Shown here: piece by piece, positions 25,720 to 36,978 of the stretch
How the letters are laid out: each line of letters begins with the position of its first letter
How positions within the stretch are numbered: the stretch's first letter is position 1
Assembly: GCA_029210545.1 (NCBI GenBank)
Contig: JARGFV010000013.1
Location: 1-36,978 of the forward strand
From: a bacterium
GTDB lineage: Bacteria; BMS3Abin14
Length of the DNA stretch: 36,978 bases
Reading direction: 5' to 3'
Translations under genes and position numbers: made by a program
Notes under the pieces: generated by a model
What the model saw: only the letters and a program-made list of their open reading frames with translations
Database searches by the model: none
Told to the model about the DNA's origin: nothing

Positions 25720-26202
25720 TTACAGCTCCTTCATTCCCCCTCTCAGGGTCCTGACGGTCAGGACCCCGGTATCGGTCATGAATTCGACACTCCTTCCCAC
25801 TGTCCCCCCAACATCCTGTGCCACCAGACGAATGCCGAAATTGTCCAGGGCCTTTCTGGCAGCCAGGATGTTCCGAGCCCCGATCCGCCTCCCCTTACCC
25901 TTGAACTGCCCGGCGAACATATCGGCCCCTCCGGTTATCTTCGCAACGATCCCGGGAGGCGATATTCCCTGCTGCTCCATCATCCGGACCATACCGGCAA
26001 CGGCCGTGTCCGCGAATTTGCCCGGGGTGTCCGTATCGTTATTGCCATAGGCCATGGGCAGCATGATGTGGGCCATGGACCCGATGCCCTCATCACGGGC
26101 AAACAGGACCACTGCCACGCAGGATCCCAGACCATAGGTAACCAGTTTTACGGGCCGCCAGGCCAGGCGAAACTCCGATATACCCACGACAACCGGTTTC
26201 AT
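25720..26202 (-). CDS. cheD: Chemoreceptor glutamine deamidase CheD
   Basis: Deamidates glutamines on chemoreceptors and binds CheC; 160 residues. The catalytic triad is in the expected places: Thr22, Cys28 (TYGLGSCVAVVLF) and His45 (MAHIMLP), matching Thr21-Cys27-His44 of Thermotoga CheD. KITGGADMF and the C-terminal VGGTVGRSVEF also match. The start ATG 26200-26202 overlaps the cheC stop as ATGA. Last gene of the chemosensory operon; downstream is 110 bp of degenerate repeats before folD, without an obvious terminator. Confidence 0.95.
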   Translation of the reverse strand: MKPVVVGISEFRLAWRPVKLVTYGLGSCVAVVLFARDEGIGSMAHIMLPMAYGNNDTDTPGKFADTAVAGMVRMMEQQGISPPGIVAKITGGADMFAGQFKGKGRRIGARNILAARKALDNFGIRLVAQDVGGTVGRSVEFMTDTGVLTVRTLRGGMKEL

Positions 26203-26828
26203 GAACCGGATTCCAGCCGTCCGGCGGCCTCCAGGAGGAGCTCAATACCGGCGTCCCCCGGCAGAAAAACGGATCGTACGAGGCTGCCTCCCGAACTGGC
26301 AGCGAGGTTGAAGACCAGCACTGTCACCTCGTCGGTGGCAGAACCGATATCAGCCAGGACAGCGTCCAGGATCGCCCCGGCCATATCCTGAACGGGACAG
26401 GGCGGAAGGCTGATCAGGATCCTGTCTGAAAGGCTGGACAAAACGGTGAGCAGGTTGCCCGTCAGGATGTTGCCGATCTCGGCAAATGCGGAAAGTTTCA
26501 GATCCTCGTCGCCGTCCCTGTCCCGACCCAGGAGAACTTCCTCCAGAGCCTCCACTCCCGCCTCGGGAAACAGGAGCAGGGCGTTTCCCTCCAGGTCGCC
26601 CTGAAAAGGTACGAGGACACCGATTGCCGGAGCGTTCAGCCCACCGAACAGGGAAGGGATCTCCTCCAGCTTCAGGGTCAGGACCTCGGATGATGTAATG
26701 CCCACAGGCAGTCGGGAAAGCCTGCCCAGAGCGTTCCCGGTCTGGGCAGCGGCAATGGCCGCCACCTCCCTTATAGCCTCGACCTGTTTATCAGAAAGGG
26801 TCGCTCGTGAGGCAGATCCGTCTGTCAT
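26199..26828 (-). CDS. cheC: CheY-P phosphatase CheC, one active site intact
   Basis: Dephosphorylates CheY-P and is stimulated by CheD; 209 residues. ATG 26828 starts five bases after the cheA stop. The family has two copies of the (D/S)xxxExxN-x22-P site. The second is complete here: Ser113, Glu117, Asn120, Pro143 (SAFAEIGNILTGN). The first reads EAIREVAAIAAAQ, keeping Glu21 but with Ala24 in place of Asn, so it is probably dead. CheC/FliY/CheX proteins with one working site exist. The neighbour cheD overlaps, fitting the CheC-CheD complex. Confidence 0.9.
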   Translation of the reverse strand: MTDGSASRATLSDKQVEAIREVAAIAAAQTGNALGRLSRLPVGITSSEVLTLKLEEIPSLFGGLNAPAIGVLVPFQGDLEGNALLLFPEAGVEALEEVLLGRDRDGDEDLKLSAFAEIGNILTGNLLTVLSSLSDRILISLPPCPVQDMAGAILDAVLADIGSATDEVTVLVFNLAASSGGSLVRSVFLPGDAGIELLLEAAGRLESGS

Positions 26829-26832
26829 CGGT

Positions 26833-28872
26833 CTAAAAGAGGTTACCCAGATCAAGGATCGGCACGATGCGCCCGTCACCGAGGACCGTCATCCCGGAGT
26901 ACCGTTTGAGGTACTGGATCGGATAGCACAGCGGTTTGACGACAATGTCCACCTGGCCGACAACGCTGTCGACGACAAGGCCGACGACACGGTTGGTCGC
27001 CTCCACCAGGACGACATTGTAGACGGGCCGGCCGTTCATGGGCGACTGGATATCGAGTAACTGGCCGAGATCGAACAGGGAAATGAGATCTTCGTCGAGA
27101 TCCAGATAACGCCTTCCCTGGCTCTCGCTGACTTCTCCTTCTGTAACCCGGATGGTTCTCGCCACCCTGGTGATGGGAACGGCAAAGGTGTGGTCCCTGA
27201 CCGAAACAAGCAGCATCTTGACGATGGCCACCGTCAGAGGCAGCCTGAGGGTAAACGTGGTGCCCTCTCCGGTACTGCTCTCGATGGACAGTGAACCTCC
27301 CAGGCCCTCAACTGCGGACTGGACGACATCCATCCCGACTCCGCGCCCGGAAACATCCGTGATCTCGGTGGCAGTGGAAAATCCCGGACGCGACACCAGC
27401 ATCACCGTCTCCTCTTCGCTGATGACTTTGGCCTGTTCGCGGGACAAGATCCCCTTCTCCACAGCCTTGGCCTTGATCCGGTGCAGGTCCATGCCGCGCC
27501 CGTCATCAATGACCTCGACGTAAACCATATCCCTCTCACGGTAGGCTCTCAGGACGATCCTGCCTGTCTCATCTTTCCCGGCCGATGCCCTTTCCCTGGC
27601 ATCCTCAAGCCCATGGTCGACGGCGTTCCTGAGGATATGGATGAGGGGGTCACCCAACTCCTCGAGGATGACCCTGTCAAGTTCGATGTCAGCACCGATG
27701 ACTTCCAGGCTGACCTGTTTGCCCCGTTGGCGGGCAAGATCACGCACGACCCTTGGCAGTCTCTGGGTCACCGTTTCCAGGGGCATCATCCTGACCTTCA
27801 TCACTTCACTGTGAAGACCGCCCACCAGGTGATCGAGCCTGGTCAGAACCTGGTCCACATCCCTTGAGCCACTGCCGGCGAGCAGATCTTTCAGGCGTCC
27901 CTTGGTCACGATGAGTTCACCGATCAGGTTGATGAAGGTGTCGAGAAGGAGGGTGCTGATACGGACAGTCTTGGCATGAGCAGATGTCGCTGAGGACGGT
28001 TCCATCTTCGGCTTCGAAACCTCGGCCAGCGGAGCCGTTGCCGGGGAAACGGGCGCTCCTGGTGACAGACCGGGCGTTTCCACCCCCTCCCTGCGGGAGG
28101 CGGAAACCTCGACCTCACCCATTTCGGCCAGTGACTGCAAGGTTTTGACCACCTTCTGCTCATCGGCGCCCACCAGGCTCACCGTGACTCGCCCGGGATA
28201 GTTCCCTGACTTGATCTCCTCGAGGGAAGGTTCACAACGGGTTATCGTGCCCAGGGATTCAAGTTTTCTGACAGCCAGGTAGGCCCGGGCGGCCGGGACG
28301 AGGCTGTCCTCGGCGATCTGGAACCGGAGCACTATTTCACCCTCTTCCGCTGTGCCCGGTCCGATCGGACCAGGTCCCGTGGGCTGGTCGGCCGTCCCGG
28401 CTTTAGCTTCGGGGATTGGTTCAGGTTCAGGTTCCGAGGCAGGCCCGGGCTGGGTCGGGACCGCCTGCTCCCCCGGGGCGGTCCCATCGATGACCCCCCT
28501 GATCCTGGAAAGCAGGGCGGATGTCTGGAGCTCATCCAGGCCCTTGTCCTGCTCCACCGCGTCCACCAGTTTATCCAGGATATCCATCCCCTCGAGGAGG
28601 ATGTCGATGATCGGTGATGAGATCGCTGTCTGCCCCTTGCGGACCGTGTCCATCATGTCTTCGAGCTGGTGGCTCAGCTCCGCGATGATCCCATAGCCCA
28701 TGGATGCCGACATCCCCTTGACGGAGTGGGCGTGACGAAAGAGCTCGTTGATGCTGCCCTCAGACCCGGGTTCCTTCTCAAGGACCAGGATACAGTTACT
28801 CATCCCCTGGACATGTTCCCTGGCTTCGGAAATAAAAAGATCTTTGTATTTGGACATGTCCATGGTGGTCAT
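26833..28872 (-). CDS. cheA: Chemotaxis histidine kinase CheA
   Basis: Central kinase of the chemosensory array, 679 residues. Domains in order: Hpt (about 5-110) with phospho-acceptor His49 (FRHAHSVKGMSA); a Pro/Glu linker; a P2-like domain (about 178-258); a second linker; dimerisation domain (about 300-365; LIGELIVTKGRL). The ATPase follows (about 365-545; N-box HILRNAVDHGLE 412-423, DDGRGMD 456-462, SGRGVGMDVV 508-517), then the CheW-like domain (about 550-679). All catalytic motifs are intact. The start ATG 28872 follows AGGAGG by three bases; ATG 28863 is an alternative. It lies 22 bases after cheY. Confidence 0.97.
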   Translation of the reverse strand: MTTMDMSKYKDLFISEAREHVQGMSNCILVLEKEPGSEGSINELFRHAHSVKGMSASMGYGIIAELSHQLEDMMDTVRKGQTAISSPIIDILLEGMDILDKLVDAVEQDKGLDELQTSALLSRIRGVIDGTAPGEQAVPTQPGPASEPEPEPIPEAKAGTADQPTGPGPIGPGTAEEGEIVLRFQIAEDSLVPAARAYLAVRKLESLGTITRCEPSLEEIKSGNYPGRVTVSLVGADEQKVVKTLQSLAEMGEVEVSASRREGVETPGLSPGAPVSPATAPLAEVSKPKMEPSSATSAHAKTVRISTLLLDTFINLIGELIVTKGRLKDLLAGSGSRDVDQVLTRLDHLVGGLHSEVMKVRMMPLETVTQRLPRVVRDLARQRGKQVSLEVIGADIELDRVILEELGDPLIHILRNAVDHGLEDARERASAGKDETGRIVLRAYRERDMVYVEVIDDGRGMDLHRIKAKAVEKGILSREQAKVISEEETVMLVSRPGFSTATEITDVSGRGVGMDVVQSAVEGLGGSLSIESSTGEGTTFTLRLPLTVAIVKMLLVSVRDHTFAVPITRVARTIRVTEGEVSESQGRRYLDLDEDLISLFDLGQLLDIQSPMNGRPVYNVVLVEATNRVVGLVVDSVVGQVDIVVKPLCYPIQYLKRYSGMTVLGDGRIVPILDLGNLF

Positions 28873-28894
28873 CGACCTCCTGGAGGGGAACGGA

Positions 28895-29287
28895 TCAGGC
28901 GCCGCGGGTCTCGTCCAGGATCCTTACGACGACATCGAGGACCTTTTCCGGCTGGAACGGTTTGACGATAAAATCTTTCGCGCCGGCGTCCAGAGCCTCC
29001 ATGACCAGGCTGTCCTGGCCCAGGGCGCTGCACATGATCACGTTGGCGGCGGGATTGAGGTGCATGATCTCCCGCAGCGCCTCGATCCCGGTCATCTCGG
29101 GCATGACGATATCCATGGTGACGATATCAGGGGTGTGCTCCTTGTACCTTTCAACAGCCTCAATGCCGTTTTCCGCTTCGGCGACGACCTCATACTTCTC
29201 ACCGCTGTAATTCTTCCCGTTGAAGATCTCCGCGATCATGTTGCGCATGAACATGGCATCGTCAACGATCAACACCTTGATAGCCAT
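28895..29287 (-). CDS. cheY: CheY-type single-domain response regulator
   Basis: Phosphorelay output of CheA, 130 residues, receiver only. Acidic pocket Asp9-Asp10, phospho-acceptor Asp59 (TMDIVMPEM), switch Ser87 (MCSALG) and Lys109 (VKPF) are all present. Its ATG overlaps the cheW stop as ATGA, so the two are translationally coupled. No flagellar motor genes are in the window; the output target could be a motor, a pilus or something else encoded elsewhere. Confidence 0.95.
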   Translation of the reverse strand: MAIKVLIVDDAMFMRNMIAEIFNGKNYSGEKYEVVAEAENGIEAVERYKEHTPDIVTMDIVMPEMTGIEALREIMHLNPAANVIMCSALGQDSLVMEALDAGAKDFIVKPFQPEKVLDVVVRILDETRGA

Positions 29288-29784
29288 CAGTTATCCCCTT
29301 TCGTGAACTCACTGTCGATCCAGACCCGGAGCTTTCCAGGGTTGATCAGTGATACAAGTTTTCCTTTGTCACGGAAAACGCCCTCGATAAACGCAACAGA
29401 GCTGTCGTCTTCCACATTGTCCCTGGCAACCTCTTCCAGGGTCGTGTAGGCGGTGAACCCGGTGGTGCTGTCTATGAGAAGAGCGAACCCTCCGTATTCC
29501 GCTGTCAGGATGAGCAGGAGCCCATCAACGCCGGGAGTTTCGGAAAGACCCAGGAGCCCGGCAAGTGAGAGCACCGAGGCCAGGTTGCCGTGAACGTTGA
29601 TCACGCCCGTCATGAAGGCAGGTGACAACGGCAGCGGCGTGATGTCAGCAGCCTTGTAGATCTCGGCCATGGCCTCAAGGGGCAGGGCAAAATATTCTTT
29701 CCCCACGGTGCACATGACCACCTCGTGCTCAGGGTGCCGGCTTTTTTCCTCGGAATTGCTTTCCAGGATCACAGGGTCAGTCAT
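29287..29784 (-). CDS. cheW: CheW-type coupling protein
   Basis: Links the chemoreceptor to CheA; 165 residues, a CheW-like SH3-type domain throughout, with EVVMCTVGKEYFALPLEAMAEIY at the start and FMTGVINVHGNLASVLSLAGL in the core (the usual GxxNLRGxxxPVxDL region, here varied). An extra N-terminal stretch of about 18 residues (SNSEEKSRHPEHE) is polar. The start lies four bases after the receptor stop; the stop overlaps cheY. Confidence 0.9.
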   Translation of the reverse strand: MTDPVILESNSEEKSRHPEHEVVMCTVGKEYFALPLEAMAEIYKAADITPLPLSPAFMTGVINVHGNLASVLSLAGLLGLSETPGVDGLLLILTAEYGGFALLIDSTTGFTAYTTLEEVARDNVEDDSSVAFIEGVFRDKGKLVSLINPGKLRVWIDSEFTKGDN

Positions 29785-29788
29785 GATA

Positions 29789-31048
29789 TCAGACCTTGAA
29801 CTCCTCTGACAGTTTTCTCAGCTTGTCGGAGAGAGCCGTCAGGTCCTGGGCCGAAGCCGCGAGTTCCTCCATGGAAGCGGTCTGTTCCTCTGTGGCGGCC
29901 GACACTTCCTCCGTGGAGGCGGCGTTGTCCTCGGCAACCTTGGAAACTTCGTCGATAATACCGGTGATGTCACTGGCAGCCGCACTCTGGGCCTCCGTCA
30001 GCTGGGATATCTCCTGTGCATGGGAGGTGGATTCCATGACCGCCTTGACGATCTCGTCCAGGGACTCTCCCATCGTCTGGAGGGTGTCCTGGCCCTCGTC
30101 GAGAACTCCCGTCACATCCTTCATGTTCAGGAGGACCTGCTCGCTCTCGTTCTGGATCCTTCCAACAATGCCCGAGATGCGTTCGGCGAACTGTTCGGTA
30201 TTGGCGGCCAGTTTCCGGATCTCCTCGGCGACCACCGCGAAACCGCGACCTGCCTCCCCGGCGCGTGCAGCCTCGATAGTGGCGTTCAGGGCCAGGAGCG
30301 TGGTCTGCTGGGCCACGTTGGTGATGATACTGACGATCTCCCCGATCTCCTTGCTCCTCTCTCCAAAACTCATGACCGAATCCCCGGTCCTTGAAACCGA
30401 GTCGAAAACCTGGCCGATCTTGGCGATGATGTTTTCGGCATGTTTCCTGCCCGCTTCCGCGGTAAAACCAGCCTCTGAAGACACCTTGGAGGAGGTCCTC
30501 GCCTTTTCGGCTACGGCCACGAGGTTCTGGGCCATGTGATGGACAGTGCCGGACATCCGCTCCACCTGGCTGGCCTGTGTCTCCGCGCCCTTGCTGATCC
30601 CGTCGATGGCAGCGGCGATCTCCTCAGTGGACGCGTTCATCTCCTCAGCTGTTGCGGACAGGGTCTGGGCCGAATCGTGGACATCTTCGGAAGAACCCTT
30701 GAGACTCCTGGCGAGAATGGACAAGCGCTGAACCATGACCCGGAACGATTCCCTCAGATCCGTGAACTCGTCCTCGAAGTTTCTCCTGGCCGGTGTCAGG
30801 TCGAGGGTGAGGTCTCCCTCGCTGATGCTGTTGGCGACGTCCCGCATTTCCCGGATGTCCCTCGTGATCCCCGTTGCGAAAAGGCTGCCGAGGCTAAGGC
30901 CCACAGCGATCGCGGCTGAGGCGGCGCCGAACTCCTTCCAGGCCCCTTCGTTGACCCCGAAGAGGTCGAAGAGGTAAGGGACAAAGACCACAACGGCGAC
31001 GACGACCAGAAAGGCGAGGATCAACTTGTATCGCATTTCCATTCTCAT
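29789..31048 (-). CDS. Methyl-accepting chemotaxis protein without a sensor domain
   Basis: A 419-residue receptor with two closely spaced membrane helices (about 7-28 and 40-60), leaving an outer loop of only about a dozen residues. It then has HAMP (about 58-115; [21 protein letters not shown]), long coiled coils and the signalling tip [20 protein letters not shown] with [20 protein letters not shown]. Glu/Gln-rich heptads in the flanking helices are likely methylation or deamidation sites for CheR and CheD. There is no C-terminal NWETF-like pentapeptide (it ends EEFKV). The lack of a ligand domain suggests sensing of membrane state, redox or internal signals. Confidence 0.93.
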
Positions 31049-31072
31049 GACAGGAGACTCCTTTTCCGCAAT

Positions 31073-31966
31073 TTAAAGGTCTATCGGGCCAGGCTGTACG
31101 TTCCCGTCAGCCAGAGGCATATCCCTGAGCCGGTAGATCCGCTCGGTGGGCGATATGCTCTGGAAAAAGAGCCTGTTCCGCCCGATGAGCGTTTCGGCTT
31201 TGCCCAGCATGAGGAAACCGCCGGGGTGCAGCTTGCGGGAGAATCCGCTGATGACCCTTTCCTGGTTCTCCCGTGAAAAATAGATCAGAAGGTTCCTGCA
31301 GACGACAAGGCTCTGGGCCTTAACGGGGTTATCCCTGAGGATATCCTCGGTGCGGAATGTAACACGTTCCCTCACCTCGTCGCTGACGCTGAAACTCCCT
31401 TCCTCTTCAACAAAGTACTCTCTGATATCCTCGTCCTCAAGGTTCTTGAGTGCCTCCAGGCCGTATCTCCCCACCTTTCCCCTGGCGAGGATCCTGTCGT
31501 CAACATCGGTGGCCAGGACGGTGAAGGGTGTCTGGATCCGGTGCCGTTTTTTGGCTCTGAGAAGAACGATAGCCAGGCTGTACGGTTCCTCCCCGCTTGA
31601 GCATCCCGCGCTCCAGACCCTGAAATGACCGTAAACGCTGTGTTCCGCCACCAGCCTCGGGAGGACGCTTCTCTCGAGGTATGCGAACGCGGTGGGATTG
31701 CGGAAGAACTCGGTGACGTTGATGGTCATGTACTGGAACAAACGTTCCAGCTCTTCCCGGTCCCTGGACAGCTCCCGGTAATAAGAACCCAGGTCGGCGT
31801 GTCCCTTGGAACGGACCTTGAGGTAGATCCTTCTCAGGATACACCTCTCCTTGTAGGCCTCCAGATCGAACCCCTTTTCCCGGATCAGGAGCTCCTTGAG
31901 GGCCTCGAAAGCCCACCTGTCCTTTTCCGGGAGATGACCGACCTGGGAAGCCTTGACCGCTACCAA
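31073..31966 (-). CDS. cheR: Chemoreceptor methyltransferase CheR
   Basis: Transfers methyl groups from S-adenosylmethionine to receptor glutamates; 297 residues. N-terminal helical domain (about 15-85), then the catalytic domain with NVTEFFRNP, the SAM-binding WSAGCSSGEEPYSLA, VLATDVDDRIL and SLVVCRNLLIYF. The start is TTG 31966, with GGAGG seven bases upstream; no better ATG exists. First gene of the chemosensory operon. No cheB esterase is present in the window to reverse the methylation. Confidence 0.95.
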   Translation of the reverse strand: MVAVKASQVGHLPEKDRWAFEALKELLIREKGFDLEAYKERCILRRIYLKVRSKGHADLGSYYRELSRDREELERLFQYMTINVTEFFRNPTAFAYLERSVLPRLVAEHSVYGHFRVWSAGCSSGEEPYSLAIVLLRAKKRHRIQTPFTVLATDVDDRILARGKVGRYGLEALKNLEDEDIREYFVEEEGSFSVSDEVRERVTFRTEDILRDNPVKAQSLVVCRNLLIYFSRENQERVISGFSRKLHPGGFLMLGKAETLIGRNRLFFQSISPTERIYRLRDMPLADGNVQPGPIDL

Positions 31967-32187: not shown

Positions 32188-33513
32188 TTACCCTATCGGC
32201 AACCCCTGTTCGGGGAAAACCACCTTCGGCGGAGACGGCTTACGGGCCAGGGCGAGGATAAGGCTCAGGGGGCCGACGCGGCCGGCGAACATGGTGAGAA
32301 TAATGATCACCTTGCCCGCGGCGGTAAGCGAGTCGGTCATCCCCATGCTGAGCCCTACGGTACCGAATGCCGACACGGTCTCGAAGATCACCGCTGCGAA
32401 CCTTCCGCCGCCGCCCGTCGTGCCGAAGAGAACCATGAGGAAAGTGGCGACAAGGACCCATGCCACCGAAAGGAAAAAGATCGCGTTGGCGCGGGTCACT
32501 ACCGTTTCCGGCAAGGTGTTCCCGCCGATCTCGGTCCGCTCCTTGCCCGCCAGGACACTTCTAAGGTTGGCGACCAGGACGGCGAAAGTGGTTGTCTTTA
32601 TCCCTCCTCCGGTAGAACCCGGCGAGGCACCGACAAACATCCATATCATCATCCACAGGATAGTGGGAAGCGCCAAAGAACCGATATCGACCGTGTTGAA
32701 ACCGGCTGTCCTGGTGGTCACCGACTGGAACAGTGCCGTGGTCACCTTGTCCAGGTATCCTGAACCGGAGAGAGAGCGGCCAGACTCCACGAACAGGAAC
32801 AACAAGGTGCCCACAACAATGAAAAGCCCGCTCATCCTGAGCACCACACGGCTTTGAAGGCTCAGGGGCCGCACCGTCCCCCTCCCCAGTCTCGACCGCA
32901 GATGCCGATAGAGATCGTAGACAACCCAGAACCCCAGGCCACCGGATACGATGAGGACCATGAAGACAAGGTTTACCCACTGGGATGACCTGAACCCTTC
33001 CAGGCTTTGCGGGAACAGTGTAAAGCCTGCGTTGCAAAAAGCCGAGATGGAGTGGAAAAGGGCCCTTGGCAACCCGCTGTCCCCCGGCCCCATCATCAGG
33101 AAAAGGGCTCCTGTGAACTCCATGGCGAAGGTGAACAGGATGATGCTCCCGATGAGGTGGGGGATCGAGAACTCCTCAACCTGGTTCAGGGCTTCACGGA
33201 GGGCGAGGCGATCCCTCAACCTCGGATTGACTCCAAGGAGCAGGCCGAAAAAGGTGGACAGGGTCATGAGACCAAGCCCTCCCACCTGCATCATGACGGC
33301 AATGGTCGCCTGGCCCAGGGGCGAAAGAGCCCGGCCGATATCCAGGACCGAAAGTCCCGTAACACATGTGGCTGAAGTCGCTGTGAAAAGGGCATCCAAA
33401 AGGGGCAGAGGCTGTCCGCCCACCGCTGACCACGGGAGGGAGAGGATCACCGTCCCGACAGCGATCACCGAAATGAACCCTATGAGGATCGCGAGGTAGG
33501 GGTTCTTTTGCAA
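32188..33513 (-). CDS. TrkH/KtrB-family potassium transporter subunit
   Basis: Integral membrane K+-translocating subunit, 441 residues. The four pore-loop repeats are visible: TSATCVTGLS (about 46-55), SISAFCNAGF (about 160), TTRTAGFNT (about 275) and VSAFGTVGLS (about 392), each with the selectivity glycine. Length is closer to KtrB than to the longer TrkH. The start is TTG 33513, with GGAG about ten bases upstream, 12 bp after the kinase stop, so it is probably coupled to the kinase. No TrkA/KtrA regulatory subunit is seen. Confidence 0.93.
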   Translation of the reverse strand: MQKNPYLAILIGFISVIAVGTVILSLPWSAVGGQPLPLLDALFTATSATCVTGLSVLDIGRALSPLGQATIAVMMQVGGLGLMTLSTFFGLLLGVNPRLRDRLALREALNQVEEFSIPHLIGSIILFTFAMEFTGALFLMMGPGDSGLPRALFHSISAFCNAGFTLFPQSLEGFRSSQWVNLVFMVLIVSGGLGFWVVYDLYRHLRSRLGRGTVRPLSLQSRVVLRMSGLFIVVGTLLFLFVESGRSLSGSGYLDKVTTALFQSVTTRTAGFNTVDIGSLALPTILWMMIWMFVGASPGSTGGGIKTTTFAVLVANLRSVLAGKERTEIGGNTLPETVVTRANAIFFLSVAWVLVATFLMVLFGTTGGGGRFAAVIFETVSAFGTVGLSMGMTDSLTAAGKVIIILTMFAGRVGPLSLILALARKPSPPKVVFPEQGLPIG

Positions 33514-33525
33514 AAAAACGATCTC

Positions 33526-35151
33526 CTACGGACCGGTATTTTCAGCTACGGGCAGCGTGATGATAATGCGGCACCCTTCGTCGAACTGCTCGTCGAGGGA
33601 GATGTCCCCTCCCTGCCTGGCCATGATGGCACCGGCAATGGTCAGGCCAAGGCCCGTACCCTCCGGTTTTCCGGTCATGATGTCCCCGCCCTGTTCAAAG
33701 CGGTCGAAGATCCGGCTGCGGTCTTCCAAAGAGATCCCGGCCCCCGAGTCCTCCACCTGGATAAGGACCTTGCTGTCCCCTTCGCTGCGAGCCGTCACCC
33801 GCGTGTAACCACCCTGCGGTGTGAACTTCAGGGCATTATCCAACAGCTTTTCGAAGACCTTGATCATCTTGTCAGGGTCCACCCTCACCAGTGGCAGACC
33901 TTCGGGAAGATCCAGGGAGAGGTCGACACCCTTGTTCCCGAAACGGCCCCACTGCCCCCGCACCGCCTCCTCCAGGAAGTAGTCCACCCCCACATCGCGG
34001 TATATGAAGAGGGTCGTACCGGTGTCGAGCCTCAAAAGATCGGTGCTGTCATCGATGAGGCTCGAAAGCCGGGAGGCTGCCTCCATGATGACGTTGACCT
34101 TGTCGATGTGGGTTGCATCAGCCAGGCTTCCCTTGAGGAGTTCCAGGTAACCGAGGATGATCGTGACCGGTGTTCTGTATTCGTGGGAAACATTGATGAT
34201 AAAATCGGACTTTATCCGGTCGATGGCCTGGAGCTTTTCATAGGCCTCCCTGAGCTCCACGGCCTTGCGCTCAAGGTTGTGATAAAGACGTGTACGCTCG
34301 ATGCTGACAGAGATGTGGGCAGCCACCACGGTGAGGATGTGGAGGTCGTAATCGCCGAGGGGCTCATCCCTCCACTTGTTATTGGCGTTGATCACCCCGA
34401 TGACCCGATCGCCAACCTTGAGGGGGACGCAGATGAGGGACTTGCTGCTATACCTCTTGTGGCTCTGCGGCTTACCGAACCTGGCGTCGGCCTCCACATC
34501 CTGGACGAGGAGAGGTTCTCCCGTCAATGCCACCGTACCTGAAACGCCCTTGCCCACCTCCATCCGCGTGATCTCGATGATCCGTGCGCTCAACCCCCGC
34601 GCCGCCCTGATGGTGAGGTGTTTCTCGTCGTCGTCAAGGAGCATGATAGATACGATGGAGTAACCAAGGTCTTCGGAGAGGTGGATGACGATCCTTTCGA
34701 GCACATCGTCGATCCCCATCCCCGGCTCGAGTTCCAGGGCCAGGTTCACGATGACCGTCGCTTCGGCGTAGCGCTCCTCCATCTCGTGCCACATGGCGAA
34801 CTCCTGGCGCCTGCTCCGATAGACCTGCGCAGCCTCAGCAAAGACCCGGGCTATCTCATCCTTTCCGGAGGTCGGGGGAAGGAAAGCCGTCACCCTCACA
34901 CCCAGGAGATCCTCGCTGGTAACATCCCCGGGGAATGCCCACAGAAGGAGCTGGGGCTGAAGATCGGCACGGGACGAAAGGCAGGGATGGCGACCAATCC
35001 TTTCGGCCCTTGTGACCAGGATGTCAGGGGGGACGGCCCCCGGGGCGCCCAGGATGACCTCGAAACCTTCGCGGCCGGCCGCCTCCGAAAGGGTGGTGGT
35101 CGCAGCCTGGTCGACCACATCGAGATGGATCCTGATGGCTGCCATGGTCAC
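33526..35151 (-). CDS. GAF-domain sensor histidine kinase
   Basis: Soluble kinase of 541 residues. The N-terminal part (about 5-100; IRIHLDVVDQAATTTLSEAA, PPDILVTRA) is like a degenerate receiver. A coiled segment follows, then GAF (about 143-285; VSGTVALTGEPLLVQDVE, KSLICVPLKVGDRVIGVINA). HisKA has His323 (INVSHEYRTP) and HATPase_c has Asn439, DSGAGIS (468-474) and GTGLGL (498-503). No membrane helices. The start GTG 35151 overlaps the upstream stop as GTGA; ATG 35145 is also possible. It lies between the GTPase-like gene and the K+ transporter; the REC-DUF4388 regulator further up is a candidate partner. Confidence 0.92.
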   Translation of the reverse strand: MTMAAIRIHLDVVDQAATTTLSEAAGREGFEVILGAPGAVPPDILVTRAERIGRHPCLSSRADLQPQLLLWAFPGDVTSEDLLGVRVTAFLPPTSGKDEIARVFAEAAQVYRSRRQEFAMWHEMEERYAEATVIVNLALELEPGMGIDDVLERIVIHLSEDLGYSIVSIMLLDDDEKHLTIRAARGLSARIIEITRMEVGKGVSGTVALTGEPLLVQDVEADARFGKPQSHKRYSSKSLICVPLKVGDRVIGVINANNKWRDEPLGDYDLHILTVVAAHISVSIERTRLYHNLERKAVELREAYEKLQAIDRIKSDFIINVSHEYRTPVTIILGYLELLKGSLADATHIDKVNVIMEAASRLSSLIDDSTDLLRLDTGTTLFIYRDVGVDYFLEEAVRGQWGRFGNKGVDLSLDLPEGLPLVRVDPDKMIKVFEKLLDNALKFTPQGGYTRVTARSEGDSKVLIQVEDSGAGISLEDRSRIFDRFEQGGDIMTGKPEGTGLGLTIAGAIMARQGGDISLDEQFDEGCRIIITLPVAENTGP

Positions 35152-35567
35152 ACGGCTGCCAGGTTCTTCTCGTGTTCTGACAGGAGAGTGAGAAGAGCTT
35201 TTTTGGCCGTCTCCTTGTTCAGGTCACCGAGCCCCCCGAAAACCCAGCTTTTCATAGCCGTTGCCCAGCCTGCCGACTGGAGCCACTCGCTGATGGCTTT
35301 AGCTTCACTCCACGAACCGTCATCACCCGAGGGGATCAGGACCAGGATACCGTCGATCCGGACACCGCCTTGAATCAGCTTGACCGTCATGTCCCTGAGC
35401 TTGCCTTTAAGACCGGTTGCCACGATCTCGAGATCACCGCCGTCGACAGTCAGGGTCGCCTTTTCACCGCGTCCCCTGGGAGAAAGCTCAAAGGTGCCAA
35501 AAAGCCCGCCTAAAAAAGCCTGCCGGGCCTCCTCGGAAGGTGAAAGGATCAAGTAGCGGACTTTCAC
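35148..35567 (-). CDS. Small protein resembling a P-loop-less Ras-like GTPase
   Basis: 139 residues, not firmly recognised. The start is GTG 35567, with GAGGTGATG about five to eight bases upstream. The layout recalls small GTPases: a first strand MKVRYLILSPSEEARQAF, where a GxxxxGKS loop would be expected but only SPSEEAR is present; a middle LTVDGGDLEIVATGL; then IDGILVLIPSGDDGSWSEAK, like the ADGIIFVVD strand; and a final helix with Lys/Glu. The missing P-loop means it probably does not bind nucleotide. It overlaps the kinase gene by four bases (GTGA), so it is likely a kinase partner or regulator. Alternative: an unrelated alpha/beta domain, such as a degenerate receiver. Confidence 0.6.
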   Translation of the reverse strand: MKVRYLILSPSEEARQAFLGGLFGTFELSPRGRGEKATLTVDGGDLEIVATGLKGKLRDMTVKLIQGGVRIDGILVLIPSGDDGSWSEAKAISEWLQSAGWATAMKSWVFGGLGDLNKETAKKALLTLLSEHEKNLAAV

Positions 35568-35587
35568 ATCATCACCTCATAAACTTT

Positions 35588-35847
35588 ATTGGACTTTTTG
35601 CGACCCAACTACAGGTAATGGACTCGCAAAAAGTCCATCAACGCGCCCCGCTCGGGGCGCCCAAATCAATGACCAGCCGCGCCTGGGAAGGGCGCCCGGA
35701 TCGATGACCGCCAAAAGCAGCCGCGCCTGGGAGAGGCGCCCGGATCGATGACCGCCAAATATGCCAGCGATCCGTGAGGAAAGGAAAAACCCCGCTTTTT
35801 CCTTTCCGTTGAGCAAAAGGCCCGCACGGACTTTTGCGACCCTATTA
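35588..35847 (+). repeat. Composite palindromic repeat, A-B-B-C
   Basis: Starts with a module C tail (TTGGACTTTTTGCGACCC, 35589-35606). Module A: ATGGACT (35618-35624)/AGTCCAT (35632-35638), then GCGCCCCG-CT-CGGGGCGC (35643-35660). Module B occurs twice in tandem, 44-bp period (from 35675 and 35719); the second copy has GCGCCT...AGGCGC, restoring a perfect stem. Module C: GGAAAGGAAAAA (35778-35789)/TTTTTCCTTTCC (35796-35807), a perfect stem with changes on both sides relative to the copy at 5-34, then GCAAAAGGCC/GGACTTTTGC. It separates the regulator gene from the GTPase-like gene. Confidence 0.85.
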
Positions 35848-36822
35848 TAGTTTATCAATAGCAGCCCTGACGCCGCGCAGGAAAGCTGTCATCCGCCCCG
35901 TTTCCGTCTGTACACTGAGCAGCCCCTTTTTCACCGCGGCGGTCACGAGGGGATAGAACCTGTACGGCGGCAGGCCGGAAAGTCTGAGGGCGTCGGCAAC
36001 CGTGCTGCCCCCCTTGAACGCTGCCGCAAGGAGTATCATCTCCTCATCGTCAACGGCAGCCTTTTCCGAAAGAAAGAGAGGCCCGTCACCGGGTGGAAGT
36101 TCGCGGATGGCCTCTTCCATCTCGTCCGACAACCGGACCCCTTCCATGAGAAGCTCCTGTCCGCTGCCCGGATCGATGTTGCCCTCGATCTCCAGGGCCT
36201 TCTGATCGAGTTTGAAGCGGCCATCCCTCCAGCTGAGCATGACGTTGAAGGCCTCCACCCCATTCCAGGCCCCTGTCTGGGCGAAGATCGGCCCCCCCTT
36301 GTCGAAATAGACTTTCCCCGTCCCTCCCGGGGTCTCCAGCAGGAGCATCCCGGTCTTTCGACCCATGTCGATGAGCTGGATGACATCGACCAGATCGACC
36401 TCTTTCAGCAAGCCTTCCAGGCTTCCGAGTTCCTTCAGGTCGGTGACCTTCCTGGTAATGGAACGTACCTTGGCCTTGAGTTCCTTGATGGAGAAAGGCT
36501 TCGTGATGTAGTCGTCAACTCCCATCTCCAGGCCCACGACCCGTTCATCCACATCCTTTTTGGCGCTGAGGAAAACGAAGGGGACTGCCGAGGTCTCGGG
36601 CCGGGATTTGATCTTGCGGTAAAGGCCATACCCGTCCAGCCTGGGCATCATGATGTCGGAGAGGATAATATGGGGCTTGATCCGGACAGCCTTCTCGAAG
36701 GCATCAAGACCGTCAACGGCCTCCACCACCTCGAACTCTTCCTCGAAGGCCAGGCGAAGCAGATGGCGGATATTCTCCTCGTCGTCGACGATGAGGATCC
36801 TTGTCATGGATGTATCGGCCAC
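35845..36822 (-). CDS. Response regulator, REC plus DUF4388 (PATAN) output
   Basis: 325 residues. The start is GTG 36822 (ADTSMTRILIVDDEEN), with GGAAGGGG five bases upstream; the longer frame runs back toward the repeat, and ATG 36807 lacks a ribosome site. The receiver (about 7-125) has Asp13-Asp14, phospho-acceptor Asp56 (LSDIMMP), Ser86 and Lys108. The following domain (about 135-235; LKEVDLVDVIQLIDMGRKTG, GKVYFDKGGPIFAQTG, AFNVMLSWRDGRF) fits DUF4388/PATAN, a protein-interaction output found in delta-proteobacteria and cyanobacteria. The C-terminal 80 residues look like a winged-helix or helical tail. Its stop abuts the composite repeat. Possible partner of the GAF kinase. Confidence 0.88.
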   Translation of the reverse strand: MADTSMTRILIVDDEENIRHLLRLAFEEEFEVVEAVDGLDAFEKAVRIKPHIILSDIMMPRLDGYGLYRKIKSRPETSAVPFVFLSAKKDVDERVVGLEMGVDDYITKPFSIKELKAKVRSITRKVTDLKELGSLEGLLKEVDLVDVIQLIDMGRKTGMLLLETPGGTGKVYFDKGGPIFAQTGAWNGVEAFNVMLSWRDGRFKLDQKALEIEGNIDPGSGQELLMEGVRLSDEMEEAIRELPPGDGPLFLSEKAAVDDEEMILLAAAFKGGSTVADALRLSGLPPYRFYPLVTAAVKKGLLSVQTETGRMTAFLRGVRAAIDKL

Positions 36823-36903: not shown

Positions 36904-36978
36904 TGACAGGGTCGCAAAAAGTCCAATCCGGGACTTTTCGCTCCACGGAAAGGGAAAAGCGTCGTTTTCCCTTTCCTT
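36904..36978 (-). repeat. Module C repeat (right end, inverted)
   Basis: On the minus strand this reads almost exactly as bases 3-77 of the window, with one difference in the first loop. It has both hairpins and the GACCCTGTCA tail. It runs to the last base. Confidence 0.9.

Follow-up and report, generated by a model that had tools for sequence, protein, structure and literature searches.

The window analysed here, 36,978 bp in length, makes up the whole of contig C13 in a draft genome of 2.72 Mb and 97% completeness. Its minus strand carries, in order of transcription, the genes for a response regulator that joins a receiver to a DUF4388 (PATAN) domain, termed here REC-PATAN; a 139-residue protein, p139; a cytosolic histidine kinase; a potassium transporter subunit of the TrkH family; and the components of a chemosensory system (Table 1).

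Gene content and arrangement of the locus

The gene layout given in a preliminary description of this DNA, including the GTGA overlap of the p139 and kinase genes and the 12-bp gap between the kinase and TrkH genes, proved accurate. The p139 stop codon overlaps the start of the kinase gene (GTGTGACCATG), which begins at GTG or at an ATG two codons further along; after the kinase stop codon, TAG, come GAGATCG and the TTG that starts TrkH, the gap being 12 bases, and a GGAG motif ahead of TrkH overlaps the kinase stop codon. The upstream end previously assigned to REC-PATAN corresponds to an in-frame GTG at 36822, upstream of the ATG adopted here. Start codons of the locus genes are predictions from the sequence, and scans for consensus promoters and terminators yielded little above chance.

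Table 1. Features of the locus, with positions in the window.
Feature	Position	Strand	Start codon or domain evidence
REC-DUF4388 (REC-PATAN) response regulator, 320 aa	36807-35845	-	ATG start; Pfam Response_reg 3.8e-25, DUF4388 2.8e-21
Intergenic block with dispersed-repeat copies, between REC-PATAN and p139	35588..35840	none	
p139, predicted Ras-like pseudo-GTPase, 139 aa	35567-35148	-	GTG start
Cytosolic histidine kinase: predicted pseudo-receiver (~residues 5-115), GAF, HisKA, HATPase	35151-33526	-	Pfam; N-terminal model
KtrB-type TrkH family K+ transporter subunit, 441 aa	33513-32188	-	TTG start; PF02386 2.1e-59
CheR methyltransferase	31073..31966	-	PF01739 2e-52
MCP, HAMP present, ligand-binding domain not recognised	29789..31048	-	Pfam
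CheW	29287..29784	-	PF01584
CheY-type response regulator	28895..29287	-	PF00072
CheA (Hpt, P2, dimerisation, HATPase, CheW)	26833..28872	-	Pfam
CheC/CheX-type phosphatase	26199..26879	-	PF13690 5.6e-7, PF04509 6.1e-6
CheD	25720..26202	-	PF03975 3.2e-29

The gap between REC-PATAN and p139 is about 12-17 bp in most relatives; in the window genome it holds the repeat block. This dispersed repeat, which contains GCAAAAAGTCCA and the palindromes GGAAAGGAAAAA/TTTTTCCTTTCC, occurs in the window at 35588-35840 and 36909-36978 and also at 56, 9487, 20280, 20439 and 23758, its core giving 8 matches against 0.17 expected. Other contigs and two relatives carry it as well; it sits at the contig end and may account for assembly breaks.

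The chemosensory system is complete for CheA, CheW, MCP, CheY and CheR, and CheC/X and CheD are also present; no cheB stands beside CheR, CheC/CheX and CheD in the che operon (window 25720-31966), and folD sits after cheD. In the loci that were read, REC-PATAN, p139 and the GAF kinase precede cheR-mcp-cheW-cheY-cheA as a conserved unit in which REC-PATAN, p139, kinase, cheR and mcp adjoin one another; the contig of one relative (G005) starts inside p139, the REC-PATAN side of its locus lying outside the contig. The tie of regulator, p139 and kinase to the chemosensory operon, first noticed in the window, thus recurs in other p139-carrying genomes. REC-PATAN is 57-69% identical in seven relatives, and the MCP and CheY are the most conserved among the genes compared (72-88%). 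The proposal that REC-PATAN supplies a possible phospho-acceptor agrees with its receiver sequence, in which the acceptor residues are present.

The usual order in relatives is Lon, REC-kinase, REC-PAS-kinase, PocR-HD-GYP, REC-PATAN, p139, GAF kinase, cheR, mcp, cheW, cheY, cheA, the upstream Pfam domains having been read in one locus (L019, 9079-16667) and partly in a second relative, and the other genomes matching by size and position. Because Lon, two REC-histidine kinases and PocR-HD-GYP precede REC-PATAN there, the signalling locus extends beyond the part seen in the window and may include c-di-GMP turnover.

Residues ~1-115 of the kinase match no Pfam domain; their model (pLDDT 81.7) has a receiver fold, and most of its Foldseek matches are receiver domains (e.g. 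3h5i at 2.6 Å, HupR, AmiR, FrzS). In the alignment, strand 3 (PDILVT) does not end in an aspartate and strand 5 lacks a lysine, and for this reason the domain is taken to be a pseudo-receiver. The kinases of G004, G007 and G009 do not have it; in them similarity begins at residue 111-122.

p139: conservation, predicted fold and lost motifs

p139 has no match above cut-off in Pfam or NCBIfam. Profile searches place it in 9 of the 12 genomes of the phylum-level group, that is, the window genome and 8 of the 11 others, one of these homologues being a fragment; across the 7 full-length aligned homologues identity to p139 is 45-70%, and the closest pair shows dN ~0.08 against dS ~0.38. This conservation and substitution pattern indicate that the gene is real and under purifying selection. 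Neither p139 nor a close homologue of the kinase was detected in G006, G010 and G011; since these genomes are fragmented and 71-91% complete, absence from them is unproven, and the p139-kinase module may be non-essential. Among 386 sampled genomes no convincing match to the p139 profile was found outside the phylum-level group: the marginal ones (E 0.001 to 1) are partial, and the two that were read, G268 and G247, fall within the tsf-pyrH region and within a substrate-binding protein, so that they were taken as chance. The module would so far appear restricted to one poorly known group of uncultured bacteria.

The AlphaFold2 model of p139 is confident (pLDDT 91.6, pTM 0.86), with the order beta1-alpha1-beta2-beta3-alpha2-beta4-alpha3-beta5-alpha4. 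All of the top 50 Foldseek matches to it in the PDB are Ras-like GTPases (Ras, Rab, Rheb, Arl, septin), at E values of 4e-5 to 2e-4, probability 1.00 and TM-scores by query of 0.40-0.64, with 8-17% identity; the TM-scores to Ras proteins are moderate and were counted against our best explanation. The small Ras-like fold of the preliminary description is therefore what prediction gives, rather than an unrelated one, and the lack of a P-loop extends to the family: G1, GxxxxGK[S/T], is found in 0/8 aligned sequences, as are G3, DxxG, and G4, [N/T]KxD. In p139 strand 1 is followed by a loop of sequence SPSEEARQ, and the final Ras strand and helix are missing from the model. "GTPase-like", as p139 had been called, accordingly suits the fold but not a working switch. 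With a Ras-like fold that has neither G1, G3 and G4 nor the closing strand and helix, p139 is best called a Ras-like pseudo-GTPase, predicted to keep the core of the small-GTPase fold. The equivalent of switch I, residues 23-35, holds 8 of the 34 invariant columns within 13 residues (hypergeometric P 0.003, for an interval picked after viewing the alignment), which suggests that these residues form a protein-binding surface.

Two other views of p139 bear on this assignment. It might be some other alpha/beta domain with a Ras-like topology and not a degenerate GTPase by descent, as the moderate TM-scores, the low identity and the failure to find a nucleotide-binding intermediate in the 386 genomes would allow; we think this improbable, given that every one of the 50 best structural matches is Ras-like, that strands and helices follow the Ras order as far as the model extends, and that p139 matches the profile of the genome's own MglA weakly but in register, over helices 2 to 4 (P 0.007, probability 5%). 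Taken alone, that match is not significant as a case for direct homology to MglA, and a profile search against PDB sequences found no GTPase; what it returned was mostly designed beta-trefoils, matched over short stretches. Retention of nucleotide binding through an unorthodox site, as in some small GTPases with degenerate motifs, could explain why the loop residues P10, R15, G24, G32, G34 and G52 are so well conserved; it is very unlikely, however, for a family in which all three motifs are missing from every aligned sequence and a fold from which the part that would bear the G5 region is gone.

The TrkH gene and its probable partner

The TrkH protein scores 332.0 bits against TIGR00933 (cut-off 331.15; model name "TrkH family potassium uptake protein"), which we take to be KtrB. 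Its gene stands between the kinase gene and cheR in four of the nine loci, those of the window genome (G000), G004, G005 and G009; in the remaining five (G001, G002, G003, G007 and G008) the kinase gene is followed by cheR without TrkH, p139 and kinase being kept. Of the trio proposed earlier, the neighbourhood thus preserves p139 and the kinase but not TrkH. The four TrkH-bearing genomes do not form one clade in a tree of six proteins (AU test P 6e-5), which implies three changes; because the insertion point is identical in these four genomes of three lineages, the simplest reading is that ktrB stood at the locus ancestrally and was lost repeatedly. Across genera the locus KtrBs share 58-63% identity. 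Their identity is 38-46% to the KtrBs of a different KtrB-KtrA pair, whose two genes lie side by side outside the locus in the genomes without locus KtrB.

No RCK domain is encoded in the locus. That TrkH lacks its TrkA is correct at this scale and fails for the genome, where contig C67 carries a separate TrkA-TrkH pair and C61 an orphan KtrA gene; a TrkA-type partner is therefore available elsewhere. All four genomes with locus KtrB, and none of seven others, have a KtrA gene between rplT and pheS (4/4 against 0/7): G001, G003, G006, G007 and G008 have rplT and pheS with no KtrA between them, and genome-wide search found no rplT-linked KtrA in G002 or G011. The KtrA of G005, with TrkA_N and TrkA_C domains, is 65% identical to that on C61. 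As the genomes are few and related, the co-occurrence is only suggestive of a partnership between locus KtrB and rplT-linked KtrA; together with the distribution of the locus gene, it points to a regulatory subunit encoded in trans and to a KtrB separable from p139 and the kinase. Use of the C67 TrkA by the locus TrkH was judged less likely, because the locus gene is the sole TrkH-type gene in G004 and G009 and because rplT-linked KtrA tracks locus KtrB exactly. We found nothing pertinent in the literature on KtrA and KtrB genes placed apart. In one relative (L084, G006:C196) three short RCK/TrkA_N genes cluster beside a TrkH gene.

These distributions tell against the idea that had been advanced from the window, namely that p139, kinase and TrkH make up one system coupling potassium uptake or turgor to a chemosensory output. 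Gene overlap, tight spacing and the constant insertion point speak for it, but TrkH is absent from five of nine loci in which p139, kinase and che genes persist, KtrB goes with the unlinked KtrA and not with p139, and the locus offers no RCK domain; we consider it highly improbable. A looser connection, in which KtrB is a co-expressed output and the kinase signal also adjusts K+ uptake without direct contact between KtrB and p139, would account for an operon position kept in divergent lineages though KtrA lies elsewhere, and for three tree changes most simply read as one origin and repeated losses. This too is rather unlikely, since KtrB has been lost repeatedly with the rest of the locus visibly unchanged, and genomes without it have their KtrB-KtrA pair outside the locus. 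Locus KtrB is probably a passenger, outside the mechanism in which p139 acts.

Type IV pilus setting and a possible mechanism

No flagellin was found in any of the 12 genomes of the phylum-level group. Contig C39 of the window genome carries type IVa pilus genes, with PilB, PilT, PilC, PilS-like and PilR-like genes in a row, PilB matching TIGR02538 above cut-off; the Che operon lies on a different contig from these. All 12 genomes have an MglA-type sequence. In the window genome MglB and then MglA, its P-loop GPGLCGKTTN intact, are encoded on contig C76; p139 and MglA genes are unlinked, and the p139 locus contains no MglB roadblock gene. PATAN regulators of Synechocystis contact PilB1 (PMC12288463), and an MglA gene occasionally has a PATAN gene in its vicinity (Wuichet and Sogaard-Andersen, PMC4316618). 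Given this literature, the Pil and MglA/MglB genes and the lack of flagellin, the type IV pilus is the most plausible output of the locus.

In our preferred reading p139 would serve a two-component and chemosensory pathway as a constitutive adaptor that does not switch. It would bind REC-PATAN, the GAF kinase or both, encoded on either side of it, and position or gate phosphotransfer between them; REC-PATAN and the adjoining Che system would drive the type IV pilus motor as the likely output; and KtrB, in the operon of some lineages, would work with the KtrA encoded between rplT and pheS. For this combination of pseudo-GTPase adaptor, type IV pilus output and KtrB outside the mechanism, whose partners, adaptor role, output and KtrB-KtrA complex we infer, we estimate a probability of about 0.45. 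A more specific form, in which p139 is a fixed pseudo-GTPase adaptor between the PATAN regulator and the pseudo-receiver kinase in a type IV pilus chemosensory pathway, possibly competing with MglA for shared partners, is tentative and, on balance, doubtful.

REC-PATAN, pseudo-GTPase and kinase with a Che operon can be regarded as a variant of known associations between PATAN proteins and small GTPases. p139 resembles the MglA/Rup GTPases (PMC4316618) in its predicted Ras-like fold and in being a small, single-domain protein encoded beside PATAN and signalling genes, but it lacks G1, G3 and G4, has 139 residues against 160-180 and is accompanied by no roadblock gene. Proteins like it would have been missed by the survey in that paper, which excluded 19 sequences of <150 aa without such motifs. 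The cyanobacterial PATAN-REC regulators of type IV pili, PixG among them (PMC12288463), share the combination of receiver and PATAN by a Che system, with pilus genes and no flagellin; they belong to another phylum, and the p139 locus differs in interposing a pseudo-GTPase and a GAF kinase, in placing the receiver first and in a pilus link that is putative. The Frz-RomR-MglA/MglB polarity pathway of Myxococcus (PMC3441718) likewise employs a Che-like system, a receiver protein and a Ras-like protein in type IV pilus control; the Ras-like protein of our locus lacks the switch motifs, and true MglA/MglB genes are unlinked to it. The pseudo-GTPases that we found in the literature are eukaryotic. 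The pseudoGTPase domains of p190RhoGAP (PMC5593906) likewise belong to a signalling protein and keep a GTPase fold that no longer does what GTPases usually do, but are embedded in a large GAP protein. The window resembles the KtrAB system in that its TrkH falls in the KtrB subfamily and its genome also encodes a single-RCK KtrA; this KtrA gene lies between rplT and pheS rather than beside KtrB.

A small, conserved and genetically linked bacterial pseudo-GTPase raises the question of what a Ras fold does in signalling without a nucleotide switch, and p139 would add to the links already recorded between PATAN regulators and small GTPases. Such proteins would escape any survey that admits only sequences with a P-loop or with 150 residues or more. 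The KtrB result cautions that a shared operon alone is a poor guide to function.

The window genome also encodes a second MglA-like GTPase (L136, G000:C2:28505-29074), which has an intact P-loop and is about 57% identical to MglA. It has a long, acidic, proline-rich C-terminus, giving 449 aa in all, and is preceded by a 250-aa gene without a Pfam match; counterparts are present in 8 other genomes (L130, L132-L135 and L137-L139).
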